Below the pieces are notes generated by a model. That model was not told the DNA's origin. It saw only the letters and a program-made list of their open reading frames with translations, and did no database searches. DNA of 34,871 nucleotides from a virus. The translations under genes were made by a program, and so were the position numbers. The stretch covers positions 1 through 34,871 of the IMG/VR virus record IMGVR_UViG_3300010885_056571; one strand, given 5' to 3'. Shown piece by piece: positions 6,156 through 34,120 of the stretch. Numbering within the stretch: the first letter of the stretch is position 1; each line of letters begins with the position of its first letter.

Positions 6156-9100
6156 TGGCTTTAAACTTTCAAGAAAATTTTACAAAACCATTAACAGCTG
6201 ATCTTACTGAAGGTAGACTTAAGGGACCTGAGGATTTTGCATTAGCAATTGTTAAGTATTATCTTGACACTGTTAAGGATGGTATGCCCGTAGGTGTTCC
6301 TCCAACACTGCCAGCACCAGGCCTTAATCCAATTGCCCCACCTCCATTTAATATAGGTGTAAGTGGCGTTAAAGTTAATCCCGCAAAAGAGCAAGCAATG
6401 CTATCAGTGCTAAAAGCTTACTTTATGGCAAAGGATATAGAATTAACAAAGGGTGCAATAGATGGACTTAAAGGAAGTATTACGCAAACTACAAATAGGT
6501 TTAATCAAAAAAAGCAAGAAATAACAAAACTAGTAGCACAAGTAAAGCAGGCCTCTCTTGAATTAAAAAACATTCCAAAATATACAAAAGAAATAGTAGA
6601 GGGAGTTAAAGAGATTATAGGAGAGGAAAAAGCTAAGATCAAAGAACTACAAACGTTTTTTTCAAACTTAAAAGAGGAATCAAAATCCTTAGGAGTTGAC
6701 GAAGATAAATTCAAATCTATATTTCAACAAGAGTTAGGGCTTATAGAAAGCTTGAAAAGTTTTGAAATTAAAAACTTTAGCGACTTTGCAAAGATACCAG
6801 ATTTAATAAAAAACACAAAACAAACCATAACTAGATTAAAAGGTCAAGCTGTAATGGGTACCTCAACAAATAGCGATACTAAGTTTAGCGACATTAAAAT
6901 GTATGTTGCGGATAAGCTTTTAGAGGTAGCTCTTTCTTTTGAAGAATTAGCAAAAATAGTACTGAATCCACCCAGCTTCCTATCCTATGTAGAAAGATTA
7001 TCAAAAAAGAATCCAAAAGTAATTAGACTGTATCGAGGTATGCAAAAATTAGATGCGGTTGAGCGGTTTGTAAAACCTGAAATTCAAAAGTTAAAAATAC
7101 AAATAGAAGGCAAAAAGGCTGAAATTCAATTATACATTCAACCAAAGTTAGATACAATTAAACAGAAGTTAGAAGATAAGGTAACAGAGCTATCAGTAAA
7201 AGTAGATAGTAGTCTAAAGACTAACCTCTATATGAAGGCTACAACAAAAGTAAAAGAATTTAAAGAAAACCACGCAGAATATATAAAAGAAAAGAAGAAG
7301 GAAGTAGAAATAATCCAAAAGATAATTAAAAAAACCAATACACTAGTAAAGCAGACAGTTACACTACAGAAGGACTTGGTAGCTGAGTTTGATGGTATTA
7401 AAGATGAACTAATACTGTTTAAAGAAGATGTAAGCGCTAGTGTTTCTAAATACAAGGATCTCTCAAAGGAAGCTAAAAAGCAATTAGCGGATAGAGCAGC
7501 ACAACCGTTGATTCCAAAAAAAAGCGAACAGACCACTCCAATTGATCCACTAATACCACCATCAATATCTACAATCAATCCACTAGAGCTAGTACAAGGT
7601 TACGAAAGACGCATAGATAGTACTGCTGACTTGCAAAGAACAAGAGAACTTAGAAAGAATGCCTTAAAGAATCAACAAAAACCAGGTCCTACAGAGGATC
7701 AAGTTTATACCTATATGAGCAAAATGGGTTTGGGTGATTTCTCAAAAACAGCATTAAGAATAATTTCAGAGAGTAAAACAGACCTTGTAACTTTTAAGCG
7801 CTTATTTGAAGCAAAAAGAAAGCAATTTGAAACTTACAAACTTACTATAGAGGATATGGTAGATGAGGCACAGGATTTGTTAAAAATGCTTCAAGAATTG
7901 TCTAATGGAAAGGGTCCAGTTGGCAGTAAGGTAGCGTGGGCAAAAACTAAAGGTAATCAATTAAAAAAATCTAAAGTGGGAAGATTTGCTACTGGAGTGG
8001 GTATATCTTTAATGGGCTTATTCTTAGATCTTGTTACATACTTAAAACCAATTATTGAAAAAGTAAAAAAGTTAGCAATACGCTTATTTGAGGGCATTAA
8101 AGCTTATGTAAAAAATAAAACTGCTAAATTTGAAAAAGATATAGAATCGTATTTACTAAATCTAATACCACTAAAGGGTTATATTGCTAATAAGGGTGCA
8201 GATGCCCGAGTGAAAAAACTAGTCATTGACGCAAAACGTAGAAAGGCAGAAGATCTAGTAGAGCAGGCAAAGCATTACAAAAATTTAGCAACAATTATTG
8301 CAAAAATAGCAAAAGGAGCTTCCGGGTTATCCAAAAACCTTATTACAGATAAAAACTACAAATTCCCAGCAAACCAAAGATACGTTAATGAAATTGTTAG
8401 CGGCTACTTTGGTTATAAGAAAGAGCAAGATGGTCCATCAAAGCAGTTAGAATCTGAAGAAGCGGCTTTTAGATTAAAAATGCAAGAACTAGCAACTATT
8501 GATGCTTTTGTAACTGGATTTATAACTTTGCTAAAAGGTGTATTTGATTCTTTAAAAAGTAAAGGAGGGTTTAAAGAAGAGTTAGATGCTTTTACATTAT
8601 CCTTAGAACAGAGTGGTGCTCCATATGCAGCAGGATGGAATCAACTTATGTCAATATTTAATACACCAATAAAAGATCCTAAAGCTCTTGGCAAAGCGGT
8701 TATATCAATAGTAAGGGACGCTGAAGCGGTTACAAAGATGGCACAGGCATTTCAGAGTCTAGAAGTATTTGGTTTTTTAAGTAGAATGGAAACTAAGTAT
8801 TTAGGTAAAACTCGAGAGTTAATTAAAACCTATGTAGATAATCCAATAGGAAACGATCCCAACCATCGTCAAGCAATGGAGGAGTGGGCATTGTGTTTGG
8901 ATAGGAATCAATCCTTAGTAGCTTTTTTATTAACAAAACTTACCGAAACAACCGATAGATTTTTTTTATTTTTTAATAAGCAAGTAAAGCTGTTTATTGC
9001 TAAACAAAAGGTTTTTATCAAAGCAAAATTAGATGCAATTGTAGTGGCACACGAGGCTGATTTAAACAAGATAAAAGATAAACTTATAAACGTTGAATCG

Positions 9101-9361
9101 GTGTTTATGGGAATCGCTTTAGACTTAGCTGCACGTGCATTCTGGACTGGCACAACCTGGCAAGGAAATACCGGAACAAACCACTTAACACTAAACATTG
9201 GATTATTTAAAAAAATAAACATACTTCCTGAAGATGGAGCAACGGGTATGGCTGAAATGATTGCTGCTAGTTTTGAGCTTCAACTTAAGACAATGACTGG
9301 ACTAGTAATACCTCCACCAAATACTGGAATACCACCTATACCATTTCAAGGCTACATCTAA
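6155..9361 (+). CDS. long coiled-coil tail protein, tape-measure or baseplate hub candidate
   Basis: This 1068-aa protein begins with a short globular region (residues 1-75) with Pro-rich text, followed by very long charged helices, Lys/Glu-rich with heptad-like spacing, covering about residues 90-460 and again 500-600. A hydrophobic stretch lies at about residues 607-640 (TGVGISLMGLFLDLVTYL), followed by further helices. The C terminus (about 1010-1068) is globular and ends in a Pro/Gly-rich tail. Long helical build with a central hydrophobic patch is typical of tape-measure proteins, which fix tail length and are expelled at infection. Its place between the spike genes and gp25 would equally fit a hub protein (T4 gp29 does both jobs). 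No enzymatic motif is seen. The ATG overlaps the previous stop (TAATG). Confidence 0.5.
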   Translation: MALNFQENFTKPLTADLTEGRLKGPEDFALAIVKYYLDTVKDGMPVGVPPTLPAPGLNPIAPPPFNIGVSGVKVNPAKEQAMLSVLKAYFMAKDIELTKGAIDGLKGSITQTTNRFNQKKQEITKLVAQVKQASLELKNIPKYTKEIVEGVKEIIGEEKAKIKELQTFFSNLKEESKSLGVDEDKFKSIFQQELGLIESLKSFEIKNFSDFAKIPDLIKNTKQTITRLKGQAVMGTSTNSDTKFSDIKMYVADKLLEVALSFEELAKIVLNPPSFLSYVERLSKKNPKVIRLYRGMQKLDAVERFVKPEIQKLKIQIEGKKAEIQLYIQPKLDTIKQKLEDKVTELSVKVDSSLKTNLYMKATTKVKEFKENHAEYIKEKKKEVEIIQKIIKKTNTLVKQTVTLQKDLVAEFDGIKDELILFKEDVSASVSKYKDLSKEAKKQLADRAAQPLIPKKSEQTTPIDPLIPPSISTINPLELVQGYERRIDSTADLQRTRELRKNALKNQQKPGPTEDQVYTYMSKMGLGDFSKTALRIISESKTDLVTFKRLFEAKRKQFETYKLTIEDMVDEAQDLLKMLQELSNGKGPVGSKVAWAKTKGNQLKKSKVGRFATGVGISLMGLFLDLVTYLKPIIEKVKKLAIRLFEGIKAYVKNKTAKFEKDIESYLLNLIPLKGYIANKGADARVKKLVIDAKRRKAEDLVEQAKHYKNLATIIAKIAKGASGLSKNLITDKNYKFPANQRYVNEIVSGYFGYKKEQDGPSKQLESEEAAFRLKMQELATIDAFVTGFITLLKGVFDSLKSKGGFKEELDAFTLSLEQSGAPYAAGWNQLMSIFNTPIKDPKALGKAVISIVRDAEAVTKMAQAFQSLEVFGFLSRMETKYLGKTRELIKTYVDNPIGNDPNHRQAMEEWALCLDRNQSLVAFLLTKLTETTDRFFLFFNKQVKLFIAKQKVFIKAKLDAIVVAHEADLNKIKDKLINVESVFMGIALDLAARAFWTGTTWQGNTGTNHLTLNIGLFKKINILPEDGATGMAEMIAASFELQLKTMTGLVIPPPNTGIPPIPFQGYI

Positions 9362-9370
9362 AAACGTAAC

Positions 9371-9378
9371 TATTTATA
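9371..9378 (+). promoter_or_regulatory. TATTTATA box, candidate late promoter
   Basis: TATTTATA fills part of the 29-nt gap before the gene at 9391 and ends 12 nt before its ATG. It would serve the group 9391 to 19066 (small helical protein, gp25, gp6 and the Ig-domain proteins), which has no other gap longer than 1 nt. Confidence 0.45.
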
Positions 9379-9390
9379 TATAAAAACAAC

Positions 9391-9870
9391 ATGAAAGCAT
9401 CTGATTTTGTAAATTTAATGCGCAAGGTTATACGCGAAGAAGTTCGTTCAATTGTTCGAGAAGAATTGAAAACAATTAAACCGCTTCTGAAGGAAACCGC
9501 ACAACCAGGATTGAACGCCTCTTTGAGGCAGGGCCTTCCAGCAAAAACGCCAAAGGTTGCAGCTCCGACAAGAAAGCCGTCAATTACACCTCCAACATTT
9601 GAAGGTCCGTTGGCAGGTTTACTAAACGAAACATATCAATCAATGATAGCACAACCACAAGAAGAAGAGGAGTGGCCGGACATGAATGGAGGAGCTCTTA
9701 CAGCAGATCACGCTCAAGGAGGAGTACAAAGCATGGCTAGTTTGTCGGCATTAATGGACGATGATGCACCACTTCCAGAAGCTGGTGGATATAGTGATCC
9801 AACGAGAGCGTTTATGAAAGATTATTCAGCAGTATTGAAAGCGGCTGATGAACATAGTATGGGGAGATAA
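9391..9870 (+). CDS. small structural/assembly protein with N-terminal charged helix, function unknown
   Basis: The 159-aa product starts with a strongly amphipathic Arg/Glu helix (residues 1-35, with the repeated pattern VIREEVRSIVREEL), then a Pro/Thr/Ala-rich linker (40-70), a short segment FEGPLAGLLNETYQ and a Gly/Ala/Asp-rich C terminus. It looks like a scaffolding or docking peptide rather than an enzyme. It overlaps gp25 by one base, so it is probably co-translated with that baseplate protein and may be a minor baseplate component. Arginine is encoded partly by CGC/CGT near the start, while neighbours mostly use AGA, a mild compositional difference. A TATTTATA box lies 12 nt upstream, so a transcript probably begins here. 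I do not recognise a named family. Confidence 0.65.
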   Translation: MKASDFVNLMRKVIREEVRSIVREELKTIKPLLKETAQPGLNASLRQGLPAKTPKVAAPTRKPSITPPTFEGPLAGLLNETYQSMIAQPQEEEEWPDMNGGALTADHAQGGVQSMASLSALMDDDAPLPEAGGYSDPTRAFMKDYSAVLKAADEHSMGR

Positions 9871-25678: not shown

Positions 25679-27445
25679 ATGGCAGGAGTATTTAAGAGTC
25701 TAGATAAATCAGACGTACGCATAACACCGTTTAGAACGTATAAGCTTTGGGCTGATGTTATACAAAATAACCTCAGTGGATCAGTGTATACAGTATACCA
25801 AGCAAACTACAACCCACAATCTAATTACCTTCAAGTTGATCCACTAAATGATTCTTTTGATCAAGGTAATGCACACTTTGAGCAATACGAATTAACCACA
25901 GCTAACGGTAAATATCAAAGAGTAGTACATAAATCAGTAGAACATTTATACTATAGAGATTTTTATACAAACAATAAAGCTTCGTTTGGAAGTGGAAACA
26001 TTAACACGCAGCTGAGGTATCTTGAGGATCAAGCTCAAATTGTAAGTATGCCTCAATCTAAATTTGGAGAAGCAATACTTCCAGGCTCTGTATCAATGAA
26101 TATGAGTTGGTCTTATGCAGTTAATAGTGGAAGCTTATACAATACCTCGTCGGTCACTACAGCAAGTGGAGTTTGGGTAGTTCAAGATGACTTTCATGGC
26201 AATCTAGTTATATCTGGAAGTGGTTATTATTCACCATATGGTCAGTACATTGGAGGTGCTTATACAAATTATACGTCCTCTGTAACAAAAACTCCAGTTG
26301 GAGAGTGGCCAGTAGATACAATCTACAAGTATACAGATATTGGATCAGTTGGATTTACTAGTAGCTTTAACAGGGGTGACTGGCAAATGGAAACAACATA
26401 CAACAATGTTAGCATTTATTTTCCAACTAGCTCAACATACCCCTCAGCATCTGCAACAGAGTTACTAGGAGCACAAATGAAGTTCAATTCAGCTAATAGC
26501 TCAAGCCTAATTATAAAGACAGATTCAGTTTCGGAATACAAAGACTTATATAACTTTCAAAACAAACCGTTCTCGGTAAGCATGCTTGTTAAGCCAATGG
26601 CATATCCAACACAAGCGTCCGGAGCTATATTATTATCAAAGCACGGTCCTGCTGAAGAGCTGCAAATAGATCAAAACGGTAATGTATTTTCACAACCAGT
26701 AAATAATCAATTCCCATATAGACTAACCTATACGTCCGGGTCACGCAAGATTGCTTTTGAGCAAGGTGGTGGACATCAGGGTATATTTTCAGTAACAAGT
26801 AGCGTAGCTTTGGATATTGATACGCTCTACCATGTAGTAGCTACTAAGTCTGGATCAATGGTGAGCATTTATGTTAATAGCGCTGTGAGTAGTTCGGTAA
26901 ACTCAGCAATAAGCTCACTAAATGATAAAGACTGCATAAACCTAGCAAGCACTTACATAGGTAATTCATATAAGCAAACTCAAGGTTTTGATGGATATAT
27001 TGATAATATCAAAATATACAACAAACTACTAAACCAAACAGAAATAAATATACTGCATCATACTCTAGGTGTTGGTAATGTAAATGTTGGTAATGTGTTT
27101 TACAATCACGGAGTAATGGGTTTAACTTCTATTCCTTCTCGATACGCCACCTTTAACACTATTGAGACAAGAGGTACTCACACTATTTGGGAAACAGAAA
27201 TATCTTGCACTATTGGACCTGGCGAATTTACAAAAAGTACTAATCCATCTTTGCAAGTTTATGATCCAAACCAAAATCAATACGTATTTAGCTCATTTGC
27301 TACCTCTTCTGATTTTTCACCATTTGTTACTAGTGTAGGTCTATATGATGACTACCATAGACTGGTGGCTATTGGAAAGCTTAGCACACCAATACAATTA
27401 CCAAATAATACAGATACAACTATAATTGTAAGATTCGATAGATAA
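25679..27445 (+). CDS. tail adhesin-type structural protein with LamG/concanavalin-like domain
   Basis: The 588-aa product has a lectin-type jelly-roll (LamG/Laminin_G_3-like) domain at about residues 260-462. The strand pattern includes PFSVSMLVKPMAYP, then AILLSKHG, then LYHVVATKSGSMVSIYVN, then TYIGNSY and FDGYIDNIKIYNKLLNQTEI, the last being the usual end of the family. Such domains bind carbohydrates, so this may be a host-surface adhesin. The N terminus (residues 1-110) has blocks that look like a structural anchor (SDVRITPFRTYKLW, then YQRVVHKSVEHLYYRDFY). The C-terminal module PFVTSVGLYDDYHRLVAI, then GKLSTPI, then IIVRFDR matches that of the upstream gene. The ATG lies only 4 nt after a TATTTATA box and 20 nt after a terminator, so it opens a new transcription unit. 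Confidence 0.7.
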   Translation: MAGVFKSLDKSDVRITPFRTYKLWADVIQNNLSGSVYTVYQANYNPQSNYLQVDPLNDSFDQGNAHFEQYELTTANGKYQRVVHKSVEHLYYRDFYTNNKASFGSGNINTQLRYLEDQAQIVSMPQSKFGEAILPGSVSMNMSWSYAVNSGSLYNTSSVTTASGVWVVQDDFHGNLVISGSGYYSPYGQYIGGAYTNYTSSVTKTPVGEWPVDTIYKYTDIGSVGFTSSFNRGDWQMETTYNNVSIYFPTSSTYPSASATELLGAQMKFNSANSSSLIIKTDSVSEYKDLYNFQNKPFSVSMLVKPMAYPTQASGAILLSKHGPAEELQIDQNGNVFSQPVNNQFPYRLTYTSGSRKIAFEQGGGHQGIFSVTSSVALDIDTLYHVVATKSGSMVSIYVNSAVSSSVNSAISSLNDKDCINLASTYIGNSYKQTQGFDGYIDNIKIYNKLLNQTEINILHHTLGVGNVNVGNVFYNHGVMGLTSIPSRYATFNTIETRGTHTIWETEISCTIGPGEFTKSTNPSLQVYDPNQNQYVFSSFATSSDFSPFVTSVGLYDDYHRLVAIGKLSTPIQLPNNTDTTIIVRFDR

Positions 27446-27448
27446 GTT

Positions 27449-27850
27449 ATGGCAAGAAAGGTTTACACAAAAAGGCAAGCAGCGGTAAAAGCTGGCTACC
27501 GAAGTGGTCTTGAAGAAGACTTAGACAACACACTGAAGGCTAGAGGTGTTGATGGTGAGTATGAAAAACATAAAATAAATTATACAAAACCAGCCACAAG
27601 TCACACATATACTCCTGATTTTAGATTACCTAATGGAATTTATATAGAAACAAAAGGTCGCTTTGTGTTAGCCGATAGACAAAAGCATTTACTAATAAAA
27701 CAACAAGCTCCACATTTGGATATTCGATTTGTATTCCAAACCTCTAAGGGTAAAATAAGAAAAGGATCAAAAACCACTTATGCAGATTGGTGCATTAAGT
27801 ATGGGTTTCTTTATGCAGATAAGGACATTCCAGCTGAATGGTTTGTATAA
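27449..27850 (+). CDS. T7 endonuclease I-type Holliday-junction resolvase
   Basis: The 133-aa protein matches phage T7 endonuclease I (gene 3; 149 aa) along its length. That enzyme cuts four-way DNA junctions and branched DNA before packaging and in host DNA breakdown. Conserved blocks are YRSGLEEDL (residues 17-25), TSHTYTPDFRLPNGIYIETKG (50-70), DRQKHLLIKQQAPHLDIRFVF (76-96) and DKDIPAEWF (124-132). The catalytic set of T7 (Glu20, Asp55, Glu65, Lys67) corresponds to Glu22, Asp57, Glu67 and Lys69 here, all present, so the enzyme should be active. T4 uses an unrelated resolvase (endonuclease VII, gp49), which makes this gene a mosaic element. It follows the adhesin gene by 3 nt and starts the DNA-metabolism cassette. 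T7 endonuclease I is a domain-swapped dimer; the same is expected here. Confidence 0.93.
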   Translation: MARKVYTKRQAAVKAGYRSGLEEDLDNTLKARGVDGEYEKHKINYTKPATSHTYTPDFRLPNGIYIETKGRFVLADRQKHLLIKQQAPHLDIRFVFQTSKGKIRKGSKTTYADWCIKYGFLYADKDIPAEWFV

Positions 27851-27877: not shown

Positions 27878-28801
27878 ATGACAGTAAGTGTAGCACAAGG
27901 AAGAAAATTACTTGACGGATATCTGGGATCAAGCATTCCTCATAGAAATGGAGAGATGAGTTACCAATGCCCGTTCTGCAACCACTATAAAAAGAAATTA
28001 CAAGTTAATCTACATACACAAAAGTGGCATTGTTGGGTTTGTGACGCAAGAGGTCAAACGGTTTCGTCACTACTTCGCAAAAGTAATGCACCTTATGAGT
28101 ATATAAAACAAGCTAAAGACTTATATGGAGACTCTTCAGGCAATTCAAAATCACAGTTCAATTCAAGAGAGCTGGTATCACTTCCAGAAGGATACAAACC
28201 ACTTTACATTAAACAAAGCACACCTGACTACAGAAACGCACTACACTACGCAATAACAGAAAGAAAGCTAACATTGATCGACATTTTAAGATATCAAGTC
28301 GGTTACTGTGAAGAAGGACCATATGCAGGAATGATCGTAATACCTAGCTATAACGGGGATAACAACCTTAACTACTATGTGGGTAGGAGTTACTACCACT
28401 CTGCTGTGACACACAAGAACCCACCAGTATCTAAGGACATTATTGGGTTTGAAAATCAAATTAACTGGAAGGAGCCTATTATATTAGTTGAGGGAGCTTT
28501 TGATGCAATAGCAGTAAAAAGAAATGCGATTCCGTTGTTTGGTAAGAAAATTATGACTACATTAAGAAGTCGTATACTAACAGAGAAGGTAAAGAAAATA
28601 TACATTGCACTAGATGTTGATGCCTTTGCTGATAGTGTTAAAGAGGTGGAGTACTTTTTGAATAATGGAATAGAGGTTTTCTTAGTAAAGCTTCCAGAAA
28701 AGGATCCAAGTGAGATTGGTTATAAAGGAATGATTGAGGTAATCGCCAATGCAAAGAAGGTAGATTTTTTTGATTTAGTGAAATTTAAAATGCTTTTATG
28801 A
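27878..28801 (+). CDS. DNA primase with CHC2-type zinc finger and Toprim domain
   Basis: This 307-aa primase makes RNA primers for lagging-strand synthesis, the role of T4 gp61 (342 aa). Cys31, Cys34, Cys52 and Cys55 (C-P-F-C and C-W-V-C, with His51) form the N-terminal zinc-binding module. A Toprim catalytic domain follows: ILVEGAFDAIA at residues 202-212 supplies Glu205 and Asp209, and IALDVDA at 243-249 supplies the D-x-D pair (Asp246, Asp248) for metal binding. A DPSE motif follows at 276-279. There is no helicase part, so this is a stand-alone primase that should work with a separate replicative helicase outside the window. ATG 27878 gives a sensible start 27 nt after the resolvase gene. 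The stop overlaps the next start (ATGA), so primase and the nuclease-ATPase are translationally coupled. Confidence 0.92.
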   Translation: MTVSVAQGRKLLDGYLGSSIPHRNGEMSYQCPFCNHYKKKLQVNLHTQKWHCWVCDARGQTVSSLLRKSNAPYEYIKQAKDLYGDSSGNSKSQFNSRELVSLPEGYKPLYIKQSTPDYRNALHYAITERKLTLIDILRYQVGYCEEGPYAGMIVIPSYNGDNNLNYYVGRSYYHSAVTHKNPPVSKDIIGFENQINWKEPIILVEGAFDAIAVKRNAIPLFGKKIMTTLRSRILTEKVKKIYIALDVDAFADSVKEVEYFLNNGIEVFLVKLPEKDPSEIGYKGMIEVIANAKKVDFFDLVKFKMLL

Positions 28802-31800
28802 TAAATAAAGTAAAGTGTGCAATAAAGGAAGTTGACCATATATTCCATATAGCAGACGTCCATTTACGTAATTGGAAAAGACATAAAGAGTTTAAGGAAG
28901 TTTTTGATAAAGTATTTAAGGCGGTAGATGAACTACCACCTAATTCTATTATCACAGTAGGTGGAGATATAGTGCATGCCAAGACAGATATGAGTCCAGA
29001 GCTTATAGAGATGGTATCTTATTTATTTAATGGCTTAGCTAGTAGGCTACCTACAATAGTAATTGCAGGGAACCATGATGCAAATCTAAATAATAAACAT
29101 AGATTAGATGCATTAACTCCAATAGTTAAGGGATTGGATCATCCTAATTTATTTTACTTACGCAACTCAGGGTTGTATGAAATTGGGGATATAGCGGTAA
29201 GTGTGATGTCATTGCTAGATGAACCAGAAAAGTATATTACTTACGACAAGATATCTAATCCAGAAAAGTATAAAAAGCTAGTAGCGCTTTATCATGGTAC
29301 AATAGCAAATAGCCGAGTCGATAGTGGTTTGATGTTGGCTCACGGTTTAGATTGGAGTGTCTTTGCAGGATTTGACGTTGTACCTCTAGGTGATATTCAC
29401 AAGCGACAAGTCCTATCAAAAAACAATCCAGCCATATTCTATCCTGGATCATTAGTGCAACAAAACTTTGGAGAAGTGTTCGAGGATCATGGATATGCTC
29501 TAGTCGACTTAACAAAGGATGAAATTGAATATTCATTTCACGACATTGCAAACGACTATGGATATTACACTTTAGATGTTGTTGACGGAGAAGTACCACA
29601 GAACTTACCCATCACTTCTAAAACAAACTTAAGAGTAAGAACAACCAACACAGATCCTGCTCAACTCAAAAGAGTACTAGCTACGATTAGAAAAGAGTAT
29701 CGAATAAAAGATGTAATTGTACAGAGATTAGATCGCAATTCAGACGGAACTGCATCAAGTTTACTGGGTGATAGTATTAATCAAGGAGATGTGAGAAACG
29801 TACAGTATCAGAGCCAATTGCTAACAGAATATCTTTTAGCTCAGGGAATTGACGACGACATGATTGCAAAGGTTCTTGAGATAAATAAAAAGCTAAATCA
29901 GGAAATTAACCTTCCAGAGATGGCACGTAACGTAATATGGAAACCAAAGAAGTTTGAGTTCAGTAATATGTTTAGCTACGGGGAAGACAATGTAGTAGAC
30001 TTTAGTACCAAGCAAGGTACTTGTGGTATATTTGCTCCCAATCATGCAGGCAAGTCGGCAGTATTAGATGCTTTGTGCTTTTGTTTATTTGATCAATCGT
30101 TTAGAGCGAGTAAGGCTGACCAAGTACTTAATCGTAAGAAAGATGACTTCCATTGTAAGTTTAACTTTGAGTTAGGAGGTATAGACTATTTTGTTGAAAA
30201 AAGAGCTACAAAGTATAGAAGTGGACCACTTAAAGGTAAGCTACGTGTAGATATAGACTTCTGGTGTATTAACTCAGAAGGAGAACGTGTATCGCTTAAT
30301 GGTGAACAGCGACGAGACACATCAACTAACATACAATCTTACGTTGGAACTTTCGATGATTTTATCTTAACAGCACTATCCCTGCAACAAAATAATTCTA
30401 ACTTTATTGATAAAACTCAAGGAGAGCGTAAGGACTTGTTAGCTAATTTTTTAGATGTAACTATTTTTGATTCGCTTTGTGATTTAGCAAACAAGAACAA
30501 CAGAAAAACAGTTATATTGCTAGAGGAATACCAAAAGCAAGACTTTGAAACAAAACTAGGAGATGCAGAGAGGTCAAAGGAGTCTTATGAGAAAAAGCAC
30601 GAAACAGCTGCTACAGATCTTGAATCAGCACAGCAATGGATGCAAGACCTAAACGACAAGTTATTAGAGCTAAATAGGGAATTACAACCATGCCAGGGTG
30701 AAGGATTGGATTTAAAGGATCTGGAAGGTGACTTAGTTGATTCACAAAATTCATTAGTTGAGTGGGAAGATAAATATAAAACAAGCCAACAAACTTATAA
30801 AGAGTTTGAGCGTGATCATTCCGCAAAATGCTACGAGATAGAGCAAAAAAAGAAATCCTTTGATACAAACCTCTACAACGACTATCAATCCGAAGTTGGA
30901 TCCAAAATTATGTTAGATAAGGAGTTGGATACTCTAAAGCTCACTATTAAGAATAAGCTTGAAAAGCTCGCTAAACTCGACAAACATGAGTATGATCCTA
31001 ATTGCTCTTATTGTACATCCAATGTATTTGTTCAAGACGCAATGCAAACTAAAAAGGAGTTAGAAGAGGATAAACAAACAGTAGGTGAGTTTCTACAAAA
31101 GCGTCAAGATTGTGTCAATTTTATCGAACAAAACTCGTTTATCCAACAGCAGGCTGATGAGTTGACCAAACTGCTAGACGAGAGAGCTCAACTAGATTTA
31201 CAGCGTACTACAGCGAGTGTTGGGTTGGAACGAGTAAGAGCATCTTGCGATAAGCTTAAGGCACAGATTAAGGATATTAAAGCAGACATTAAAGTGTACA
31301 ATGAAAACACTACAATACTTGACAACAACAGACGTATCAATGATGAGATTAGTCAGATCAACAAAGAGAAGAATGTACAGTCTATAGCTGTATCCAAGCT
31401 AAATAACACAGTAAAAGACTACCATGCTAGGATACAAGTTGCTGAGCAAACAATTAGCGAATGCTTGAAGACAATTGATCACATGCAACAATTAGTAGAA
31501 GAGCAAGTTGCTTACGAGTTATACTCAAAAGCAATGTACAAGGATGGTATTCCTTATACTTTAATTAGTAAAGCGGTTCCCTACATTCAACAACATACAA
31601 ATAATATTCTCAATCAAATCATTGACTTTACAGTTGCACTAGAAACAGATGGAAAAAATATAAACGCGTTTATTTGTTATGATGACGATAAATGGCCTCT
31701 AGAGTTGAGCTCAGGGATGGAAAGATTCATGGCCTCCATTGCAATAAGAATAGCACTAATCAAAATTACAAACTTACCGAAACCAGACTTTATGGCAATT

Positions 31801-31980
31801 GATGAGGGACTAGGAGTTTTAGATAGTACTAATCTAAACTCAATGCACACTCTATTTACTCACATGAAAGATGTATTTAGATTCAGTTTGGTAATCTCAC
31901 ACATCGATGTAGTAAGAGATATGGTTGATACAATCTTAACAATAGATAAAAAGGACGACCACAGCTACATATCTTGTTAG
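28798..31980 (+). CDS. fused Mre11/SbcD (gp47-like) nuclease and Rad50/SbcC (gp46-like) ATPase
   Basis: One uninterrupted 1060-aa frame carries both halves of the Mre11-Rad50 complex. Residues 1-250 are the calcineurin-type phosphodiesterase: D20-x-H22, GGDIVH (55-60), GNHD (91-94), YHGT with His166 and GDIH (198-201) give the metal-binding set. Residues 250-375 look like the capping and Rad50-contact part. From 383 the Rad50/SbcC half begins: Walker A APNHAGKS (413-420; first Gly is Ala), a Q-loop-like SLQQNNSNF (528-536), coiled coil about 570-900 with a zinc hook C-S-Y-C (736-739), ABC signature ELSSGMERF (969-977), Walker B FMAIDEGLG (998-1006) and H-loop His1035. The enzyme should process DNA ends in phage recombination-dependent replication, as T4 gp46/gp47 do from two genes. 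ATG overlaps the primase stop by 4 nt. All expected motifs are present, so it looks functional. Confidence 0.93.
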   Translation: MINKVKCAIKEVDHIFHIADVHLRNWKRHKEFKEVFDKVFKAVDELPPNSIITVGGDIVHAKTDMSPELIEMVSYLFNGLASRLPTIVIAGNHDANLNNKHRLDALTPIVKGLDHPNLFYLRNSGLYEIGDIAVSVMSLLDEPEKYITYDKISNPEKYKKLVALYHGTIANSRVDSGLMLAHGLDWSVFAGFDVVPLGDIHKRQVLSKNNPAIFYPGSLVQQNFGEVFEDHGYALVDLTKDEIEYSFHDIANDYGYYTLDVVDGEVPQNLPITSKTNLRVRTTNTDPAQLKRVLATIRKEYRIKDVIVQRLDRNSDGTASSLLGDSINQGDVRNVQYQSQLLTEYLLAQGIDDDMIAKVLEINKKLNQEINLPEMARNVIWKPKKFEFSNMFSYGEDNVVDFSTKQGTCGIFAPNHAGKSAVLDALCFCLFDQSFRASKADQVLNRKKDDFHCKFNFELGGIDYFVEKRATKYRSGPLKGKLRVDIDFWCINSEGERVSLNGEQRRDTSTNIQSYVGTFDDFILTALSLQQNNSNFIDKTQGERKDLLANFLDVTIFDSLCDLANKNNRKTVILLEEYQKQDFETKLGDAERSKESYEKKHETAATDLESAQQWMQDLNDKLLELNRELQPCQGEGLDLKDLEGDLVDSQNSLVEWEDKYKTSQQTYKEFERDHSAKCYEIEQKKKSFDTNLYNDYQSEVGSKIMLDKELDTLKLTIKNKLEKLAKLDKHEYDPNCSYCTSNVFVQDAMQTKKELEEDKQTVGEFLQKRQDCVNFIEQNSFIQQQADELTKLLDERAQLDLQRTTASVGLERVRASCDKLKAQIKDIKADIKVYNENTTILDNNRRINDEISQINKEKNVQSIAVSKLNNTVKDYHARIQVAEQTISECLKTIDHMQQLVEEQVAYELYSKAMYKDGIPYTLISKAVPYIQQHTNNILNQIIDFTVALETDGKNINAFICYDDDKWPLELSSGMERFMASIAIRIALIKITNLPKPDFMAIDEGLGVLDSTNLNSMHTLFTHMKDVFRFSLVISHIDVVRDMVDTILTIDKKDDHSYISC

Positions 31981-31996: not shown

Positions 31997-34120
31997 ATGA
32001 GCTTATCATCTTTTTATAAAAAACCACAACCGAGAGGCTATAGCAATAGTAAGTACTATATTGAAGATATTAGTGCATCCTCTCCATATTATTTCAATAT
32101 ACAGCAATTCCCTTCTGTAGTTGGAGGTGGCAAGAGTGTTATTGTAATAAAGGGTAACGGAGACAATCTTAGACTCAACTCCACTATTGATGTAGAGGTA
32201 ATTGACGCGAATGGGGATAATGTTTTTGTTGAAATGACCAACTATATTGATCGATTCAATAATTACTACATCACATTTGAAGTATATGACATAACAGCAA
32301 AAGGACCTGCTACGGTGTACCTAGTTGGAGAAGCTTTAATTGATGAAAAAGGAGATCCAATACCAGTAGAGTATCAAGGAAATTATAATGTAAGGTGGTC
32401 GGGCAACACTATGCTATTACCTTTTGAGAGAAATAATGCTGACCTATATTTTGATAAGCCACCATCTGTTAGTATAGTACAAGTCATTACTCCAGAAAGA
32501 GCTTTAATATCAGAAGCCTCAGGATCTGCAGGATCAGCTTACCTAGTGTATACATCAAGCAAAGACGACTACACTATACAAACCTCAAACTTTCAGGGAT
32601 ATGATCGGGATTTCTCAACAAGTACTGAGATATTAGATACTCGTTTACAATCTATATTGGCTAACCCAAACCAAAAGCCATCGACAACTAATACCATAAA
32701 CTCTTCACTAAGAAGAGGTGTTTCTGATATTGAAAATGGATATCTTAAGGAACAATCATCACGATTTGGAACAATAGTAACTTCAGCCTCCGGATCAATT
32801 AAAAAAGACTTCTTAGGAGCTACATTTAACTTCTTCAGTTCAGAGTCATCTCCTAAAAATTTATATCCAGCTCTACCAGTAAGTGCTTCTGTGTCTGGAA
32901 GCGTTTATGATCAATTAGCTATGTTTGAAGCTAACGTTGTTGAGGTAATAAGCAGCACTCAAATGGTGCTAAGTAAACCCTTATCGGTAGTAATGTTGGA
33001 CACAAACCAAAAGAGTAAAAATTATACAACTACTTTTAATTATAAAAAAGCAACCAACTTCACAGGTAGTTTAACATATTTACCTAGTGATGGTGCTTTT
33101 GTTACAAGTTCAACGGTTAGCCAATCATATTTGGAAACAACCTTTTCAGATCTTAAACCAATAAGTGGTGAGGTTTATAGAATCAAAACATACTACAAAA
33201 GAGGTATTGCAACCGGTGAATATAAATTGATATATGATCATGTTGTATCCCCAGTTGAGTATTTAACAGATGCAGCTTATCCTAATCAAACATCATATGC
33301 AAAACATGATTCAGATTATAGACTAATTGGACATTTTACCACCGATGATATTATAGATCATTATTGGGATTTTTATGTAGAAACTTCAAATGCAATATAC
33401 ATATCACCAACTCCAAACATAGTAAGCTCCTCATTACACGAAAGCATTCCAGTAAATGCTAACTATAGCCAATCTTACCTAGCTACAACAAAGTACAATC
33501 AAAATTACAATGCTAACCAAATATATACTCTCAGCTGCTTAATAGCAATGGATCCTAACACAGAGGTGGAGGTGTACATGAATAGTGAGCCAGTGAGTAC
33601 AAATACATACATAGCCTCATCCTATCCACGAGCTTTTTCTAAAACAATTAACAAAGAAAAAGATAGGTATGGTGATTCTTTTAATCGATTTGGAAAGTAC
33701 CTAGGAAAAATAATTAACGATAGTAATAAAGCAAAATATTATGGTCGTGTTGAGTTTGATTTTTTAACAGATAATGATGGATTAGGTAGACCTTTATTCA
33801 GAGCTAATACTATAGATAGAGTAAATACAACTGGAAGTGCTTATGTGGCAGAGATAGGCATTAAACCACTAACAATGAATGGCTTTTCTCCAAACCTAGT
33901 TCAATTTTCAATTCCATTTAACAATGAGATAGATAGCATTTTATCACTATCTCAATCTTTAGATTTTAAAATAGAGTATTTTGATTACACGGGAAAGCAG
34001 TCTGAATACGTTACAAATATAAATGATTTGGTTGTAAACTTAAAGGGTGAAATACCATCCAATACATGCCAAGCAGATACAACCTACTTCTACGCACTAG
34101 GAACAACCGAAAATTATTAA
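31997..34120 (+). CDS. large tail/fibre structural protein, beta-rich, function not assigned
   Basis: The 707-aa product resumes the structural genes after the DNA-metabolism cassette. The N terminus (MSLSSFYKKPQPRGYSNSKY, then YYFNIQQFPSVVGGGKSVI) leads into a beta-sandwich-like region at about residues 35-115 (IVIKGNGDNLRLN, then YYITFEVYDITAKGPATVYL). The middle contains SerThr-rich text (about 210-290), and the body is rich in Tyr, Asn, Ser and Thr (YETTF-type strands, YRIKTYYKRG, then YWDFYVETSNAIYISPTP). The end is VNLKGEIPSNTCQ and TYFYALGTTENY. No enzymatic motif, signal peptide or membrane segment is visible. The ATG is 4 nt downstream of a TATTTATA box, so it begins a new late transcript separated from the replication genes. 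It is likely a wedge or fibre component; the next gene follows after 1 nt. Confidence 0.6.
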   Translation: MSLSSFYKKPQPRGYSNSKYYIEDISASSPYYFNIQQFPSVVGGGKSVIVIKGNGDNLRLNSTIDVEVIDANGDNVFVEMTNYIDRFNNYYITFEVYDITAKGPATVYLVGEALIDEKGDPIPVEYQGNYNVRWSGNTMLLPFERNNADLYFDKPPSVSIVQVITPERALISEASGSAGSAYLVYTSSKDDYTIQTSNFQGYDRDFSTSTEILDTRLQSILANPNQKPSTTNTINSSLRRGVSDIENGYLKEQSSRFGTIVTSASGSIKKDFLGATFNFFSSESSPKNLYPALPVSASVSGSVYDQLAMFEANVVEVISSTQMVLSKPLSVVMLDTNQKSKNYTTTFNYKKATNFTGSLTYLPSDGAFVTSSTVSQSYLETTFSDLKPISGEVYRIKTYYKRGIATGEYKLIYDHVVSPVEYLTDAAYPNQTSYAKHDSDYRLIGHFTTDDIIDHYWDFYVETSNAIYISPTPNIVSSSLHESIPVNANYSQSYLATTKYNQNYNANQIYTLSCLIAMDPNTEVEVYMNSEPVSTNTYIASSYPRAFSKTINKEKDRYGDSFNRFGKYLGKIINDSNKAKYYGRVEFDFLTDNDGLGRPLFRANTIDRVNTTGSAYVAEIGIKPLTMNGFSPNLVQFSIPFNNEIDSILSLSQSLDFKIEYFDYTGKQSEYVTNINDLVVNLKGEIPSNTCQADTTYFYALGTTENY

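Follow-up and report, generated by a model that had tools for sequence, protein, structure and literature searches.

The DNA analysed here, IMG/VR virus record IMGVR_UViG_3300010885_056571 (34,871 bases; hereafter the window), derives from an uncultured tailed phage and encodes an Mre11 (SbcD) nuclease followed by a Rad50 (SbcC) ATPase in one open reading frame, which has an ATG start, zero internal stops and a length of 1060 amino acids (aa) (Table 1). In this protein Pfam places Metallophos at residues 15-129 (1.8e-8) and AAA_23 at residues 389-629 (1e-13), and PHROGs assigns residues 5-369 to the SbcD-like phrog_100 (2.1e-23) and residues 359-1058 to the SbcC-like phrog_77 (5.3e-43). The phage protein is an intact Mre11–Rad50 fusion in one frame; both the joining of the two enzymes in 1060 aa and the order nuclease then ATPase had been put forward in the original prediction, and the domain matches bear them out.

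Table 1. Features of the fused gene, the two genes upstream of it and the split copies in relatives (window positions unless a locus is named).
Feature	Position	Strand	Evidence
Fused Mre11-Rad50 (SbcD-SbcC) gene, 1060 aa	28798..31980	+	Open reading frame, Pfam, PHROGs; intact frame in 68/80 relatives
Mre11/SbcD phosphoesterase and capping domain, residues 1-310	28798..29727	+	Pfam Metallophos, fold matches, motifs
Helix-loop-helix, residues 335-369, at the position of the Rad50-binding helix-loop-helix of Mre11	29800..29904	+	AlphaFold helices
Inter-domain linker, residues 370-379	29905..29934	+	Between helix 353-369 and strand 380-389 of the model
Rad50 N-terminal ATPase lobe; Walker A A413-P-N-H-A-G-K-S420, Q530	29935..30462	+	Pfam, alignment, fold match
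Antiparallel coiled coil, residues 556-728 and 743-913	30463..31536	+	AlphaFold helices
Zinc hook C736-S-Y-C739	31003..31014	+	Both Cys invariant in 71 fused proteins
Rad50 C-terminal ATPase lobe; S972-G-M-E975, D1002-E1003, D-loop D1009, H1035	31537..31977	+	Alignment, fold match
DnaG-like phage primase (zinc ribbon and Toprim)	27878..28801	+	phrog_47, 9e-32
Phage endonuclease, phrog_945	27449..27850	+	phrog_945, 2.2e-51
Split copies of the fused gene	L002 7980-12205 (484-kb uncultured phage); L043 2474-5754; L133 3304-6544		

Conservation of the motifs was scored over an alignment of 71 fused proteins. The metallophosphoesterase motif set (DxH, GDxx(D/H), GNHD, H-G, G(H/D)xH) is complete, as D20-x-H22, G56-D57-x-x-H60, G91-N-H-D94, H166-G167 and G198-D-I-H201, with motif V reading GDIH, not GHxH. 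The Rad50 set is complete too, in two lobes around the coiled coil: a variant Walker A (residues 413-420), the signature (S972-G-M-E975), Walker B (D1002-E1003), the D-loop and the switch histidine (H1035). Invariant or nearly so across the alignment are D20, H22, G56, D57, G91-N-H, H166 and G198-D-I-H201 in the nuclease, and N415, G418-K419, S972-G973, E975, D1002-E1003 and H1035 in the ATPase. The proposed hook cysteines, C736 and C739, are both invariant and sit between predicted helices ending at residue 728 and starting at residue 743. The coiled coil had correctly been called short; however, such a length is normal for phages, and the Rad50 part (~680 aa) exceeds T4 gp46 (560 aa).

An AlphaFold model built from 40 sequences (mean predicted local distance difference test score 80.4) contains a phosphoesterase with a capping domain reaching roughly residue 310, a segment of poor order (residues 313-326), two helices (335-348 and 353-369), a linker of ~10 residues, and Rad50 starting at strand 380-389. 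The Mre11 part matches Staphylococcus aureus SbcD (7dog; Z 24.0, 279 residues, root-mean-square deviation (rmsd) 4.1, over residues 13-311) and, within residues 8-311, 4nzv (Z 23.0) and 3thn (Z 22.6); Thermotoga maritima Mre11 is among the solved structures matched. The Rad50 part matches Escherichia coli SbcC (7yzo; Z 29.6, 351 residues, rmsd 3.5). Foldseek ranks full-length fused proteins of giant viruses as the top viral matches, with Tupanvirus first (E 2e-65), then Yasminevirus, Harvfovirus and Catovirus; after these come Tenacibaculum, Listeria and other phage proteins of ~1000-1300 aa. The helix-loop-helix of Mre11 binds Rad50, and a linker of 9-12 residues has been argued to suit the known geometry (PMC3175470), with which the ~10 residues of the window linker agree. 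The modelled linker also falls inside the interval of about 29900-29960 within which the junction had been predicted.

An unbroken frame over both domains is present in 68 of the 80 IMG/VR relatives that were kept from 233 found (counts on relatives refer to these 80), at identities of 39-96%. The remaining 12 comprise nine cut by contig ends and three that are interrupted (L015, L043 and L061), and these broken frames indicate that errors or real splits do occur in such data; beyond this, nothing was found to favour a joining of two separate genes by assembly or sequencing. However, the unbroken frame is shared by relatives from independent metagenomes and by an isolate, Microcystis phage Mel-JY01 (WWT39521.1), whose fusion is 36.5% identical to the window protein. 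Across the junction, substitutions at codon positions 1, 2 and 3 number 1, 0 and 8 between the window and L007 (8/9 at the third position), and 4, 2 and 28 between the window and L009 (28/34 at the third); they fall mostly at third positions, as expected if the junction is translated. We therefore reject an artefactual fusion, the likelihood of which is negligible; a missed stop or frameshift at the junction, named in the original prediction as its possible flaw, is contradicted by the same intact frames and third-position divergence.

A single mRNA could nevertheless give two proteins, if translation also started internally close to the junction or if a protease cut the linker, and these proteins would act like separate SbcD and SbcC. 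There are in-frame ATGs close to the junction at 29860, 29920 and 29968, and three relatives make the protein in two pieces, though split at another site (described below). Against this, no clear ribosome-binding sequence lies ahead of these ATGs, a start at 29968 (Met391) would drop the first Rad50 strand (380-389), and none of the fetched relatives of the window clade is split at the domain junction. We consider production as two proteins very unlikely. A cellular or prophage origin of the gene was also rejected: a pattern scan of genome contigs gave no relative, and in a plasmid scan the matches were no more than partial and fell in ordinary SbcD or SbcC genes.

The design had been thought undescribed, but the Mre11–Rad50 fusion architecture is already published and is widespread in phages, an outcome that the original prediction had itself named as one that would overturn it. 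Yoshida, Claverie and Ogata described such fusions in 2011 for Mimivirus (R555), Bacillus phage 0305phi8-36, bacteria and eukaryotes, and also on plasmids of Clostridium kluyveri and Deferribacter and on many marine viral scaffolds; they argued that the R555-like genes of aquatic metagenomes are mostly viral, some of them from phages (PMC3175470). Annotated single genes with both domains are found in phages of Rhizobium, Escherichia, Acinetobacter, Cobetia, Xanthomonas, Vibrio and Thermus, and Listeria phage LMTA-57 has a 3030-base gene of the fused kind.

R555 and the marine fusions have, in common with the window protein, Mre11 then Rad50 in one frame with a helix-loop-helix and a short linker, and R555 is reported with the same two changes in the nuclease, where His replaces the third Asp and Asp replaces the His of GHxH (PMC3175470). 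At the first of these positions, Asp in many Mre11, the alignment has H60 in 69/71 proteins, and T. maritima Mre11 likewise has His; at the second, His in cellular Mre11, D199 is found in 71/71. The nuclease motifs listed in the original prediction are thus all present, although GDxxH and GDIH are substitutions relative to the textbook set, which T4 retains in canonical form (GDxxD and GHFH). Marine scaffolds with R555 homologues carry phage primases and T7 gp3-like endonucleases (PMC3175470). In the window the primase gene overlaps the start of the fusion by four bases (28798-28801), and a primase lies directly upstream of the fusion in 80/80 relatives; the phrog_945 endonuclease gene is present in 60/80 and, by analogy with the neighbours named in PMC3175470, likely encodes a T7 gp3-type Holliday junction endonuclease. 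Because architecture, motif substitutions and neighbours all match, the window gene very likely belongs to the same group as the marine R555-like fusions. R555 itself differs in its length (1351 aa) and in a coiled coil of cellular length, whereas the window protein has 1060 aa and comes from a tailed phage. The fusion of Mel-JY01 resembles that of the window in being full-length and in its setting, with a primase upstream and the same tail genes nearby, but a small extra open reading frame separates it from the primase, which is itself preceded by a GIY-YIG protein. Long contigs here confirm what Yoshida et al. inferred from short marine scaffolds, namely that R555-like fusions belong to abundant tailed phages, in which they sit in a fixed primase–nuclease neighbourhood.

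The claim of a full set of Rad50 ATPase motifs holds with one refinement: Walker A reads APNHAGKS (window positions 30034-30057), with Ala in place of the first Gly. Ala413 is nearly invariant in the alignment, and an Ala-first Walker A (A-x-N-x-x-G-K-S) is common to every window-clade member in a tree of 34 concatenated proteins, Mel-JY01 and the 484-kb uncultured phage L002 among them, whereas the other fused phage proteins of the same tree are Gly-first; the AxNxxGKS form of the clade may be a less known detail. Among the Gly-first proteins is a second fusion group on a separate branch (Thermus phiLo, Rhizobium RHph_Y65, Escherichia IME392, Acinetobacter Ab1-TPeters, Cobetia Carin-5, Xanthomonas phiXF1 and Vibrio 150E35-1), which resembles the window in having Mre11 and Rad50 in one polypeptide (866-1054 aa). 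The separation of the window clade from this Thermus–Rhizobium–Acinetobacter clade is part of a tree that requires at least two changes between fused and separate, so that a single origin of all phage fusions is rejected, in agreement with the repeated fusion proposed in 2011 (PMC3175470). As the root of the tree is not known and several branches are long, gain and loss of the fusion are indistinguishable in it; the fusion arose or was lost more than once.

Support for a single-chain nuclease comes from the one frame and its domain order, from conservation of residues in the catalytic centre, ATP site and hook, and from predicted folds and conserved neighbours, and we regard it as highly probable that the window encodes a single-chain phage Mre11–Rad50 (SbcD–SbcC) nuclease of the Mimivirus R555-like kind. 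T4 gp47 and gp46 contain both of these domains and are inferred to serve phage recombination in the same way, but are the products of two genes with gp46.2 and gp46.1 between them; E. coli SbcCD shares the fold of both parts and the DEGxGxLD type of Walker B, but consists of two proteins and has a much longer coiled coil. By analogy, the best reading of the window protein is a recombination or resection nuclease that would do the job of T4 gp46/47 from one chain. From homology with SbcCD and T4 gp46/47 we infer that the protein forms a dimer, is active as nuclease and ATPase, and plays this part in infection. The assembly would most likely hold two chains, joined at the Mre11 domains and, in the presence of ATP, also at the Rad50 heads, and would thus match the 2:2 machine of SbcCD or T4 gp46/47. 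As the heads bind and hydrolyse ATP, they could alternately admit DNA ends or hairpins to the Mre11 metal centre and shut them out, while the zinc-hooked coiled coil would tether ends or duplexes. The fusion would be made together with the primase and endonuclease from one operon-like gene set, and the enzyme could serve recombination-dependent replication by resecting DNA ends, and could also trim branched phage DNA. Bacterial SbcCD is already a 2:2 complex, so the fixed 1:1 ratio that had been emphasised as a consequence of fusion adds little.

Several points weigh against this interpretation. The predicted template modelling score of the AlphaFold model is 0.50, so the relative placement of the domains in it is not reliable. 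With an Ala-first Walker A and GDIH as motif V, catalysis could differ from that of SbcCD. The placement with R555 draws on the substitutions reported for it, on gene neighbours and on fold matches instead of a tree containing R555. A search of the open-access literature gave only PMC3175470 and no biochemical study of a natural Mre11–Rad50 fusion; to this extent the earlier statement that no characterised enzyme has this design stands, the architecture itself having been described.

The motif substitutions might mean that the nuclease or the ATPase is weakened and that the protein serves as a Rad50-like DNA tether or clamp, and the constancy of Asp199 (invariant) and Ala413 (nearly so) in the alignment fits such a role. 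However, GDxH also occurs in SbcD-like proteins of other phage groups (Thermus phiLo and Vibrio VCPH) as well as at the reported position in R555, and conservation of every other catalytic residue suggests that activity is under selection; a tether or clamp is quite unlikely in our assessment. It is unlikely, if somewhat less remote, that the fused clade is a mechanistically distinct enzyme, characterised by AxNxxGKS and GDIH, by a nuclease covalently tied to its own ATPase head, and by tolerance of a cut directly after GDIH; if so, nuclease and ATPase would be coupled in cis, in place of an exchange of separate subunits. For the single-chain nuclease that we favour, forms of ~1060 aa would be useful for structural work on Mre11–Rad50 coupling because their parts cannot dissociate, and isolates such as Mel-JY01 make the coupling question testable.

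In three distinct lineages (L002, L043 and L133; Table 1) the break in the gene falls at an identical point of the nuclease, immediately behind GDIHK(R/M)Q: the upstream piece ends after a short added tail, and the downstream piece has an ATG shortly ahead of the conserved xGS strand. In L002 the gap is filled by a 305-aa open reading frame (8701-9618) whose product has a TnsA-like nuclease domain (Pfam, 5.8e-6) and zinc-ribbon-like cysteines; a search for its relatives gave 11 loci with partial matches only. A group I intron in the split copies was rejected, as neither L002 nor L043 nor the window matched Rfam at gathering scores. Homing-endonuclease insertions split nrdA of Aeh1, the T4 topoisomerase and gene 43 of phage 25, and the split Aeh1 enzyme is reported to be fully functional (PMC2988022); by analogy, the splits in the three lineages look like homing-endonuclease insertions that left genes in pieces. 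The re-splitting after GDIH in three lineages may also be a less known detail. In Yersinia phage YerA41 (L101 1405-4442), Mre11 and most of Rad50 form one gene, and the C-terminal Rad50 lobe is encoded by a separate, overlapping next gene, so that this machine is divided in yet another manner.

A scan of the window for promoters and terminators gave no excess over shuffles. A baseplate wedge-like protein is encoded upstream of the endonuclease and primase. At 25679-27445 lies a gene for a protein of 588 aa in which Pfam finds a Laminin_G_3 (concanavalin A-like lectin) domain (E 5.8e-18); the length of this protein varies strongly among relatives, and it is probably a tail or receptor-binding protein. 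After the fusion, at 31997-34120, a 707-aa protein without a clear family match is encoded; it is possibly structural, and it follows the fusion in many relatives, at lengths from ~700 to well over 1700 aa.

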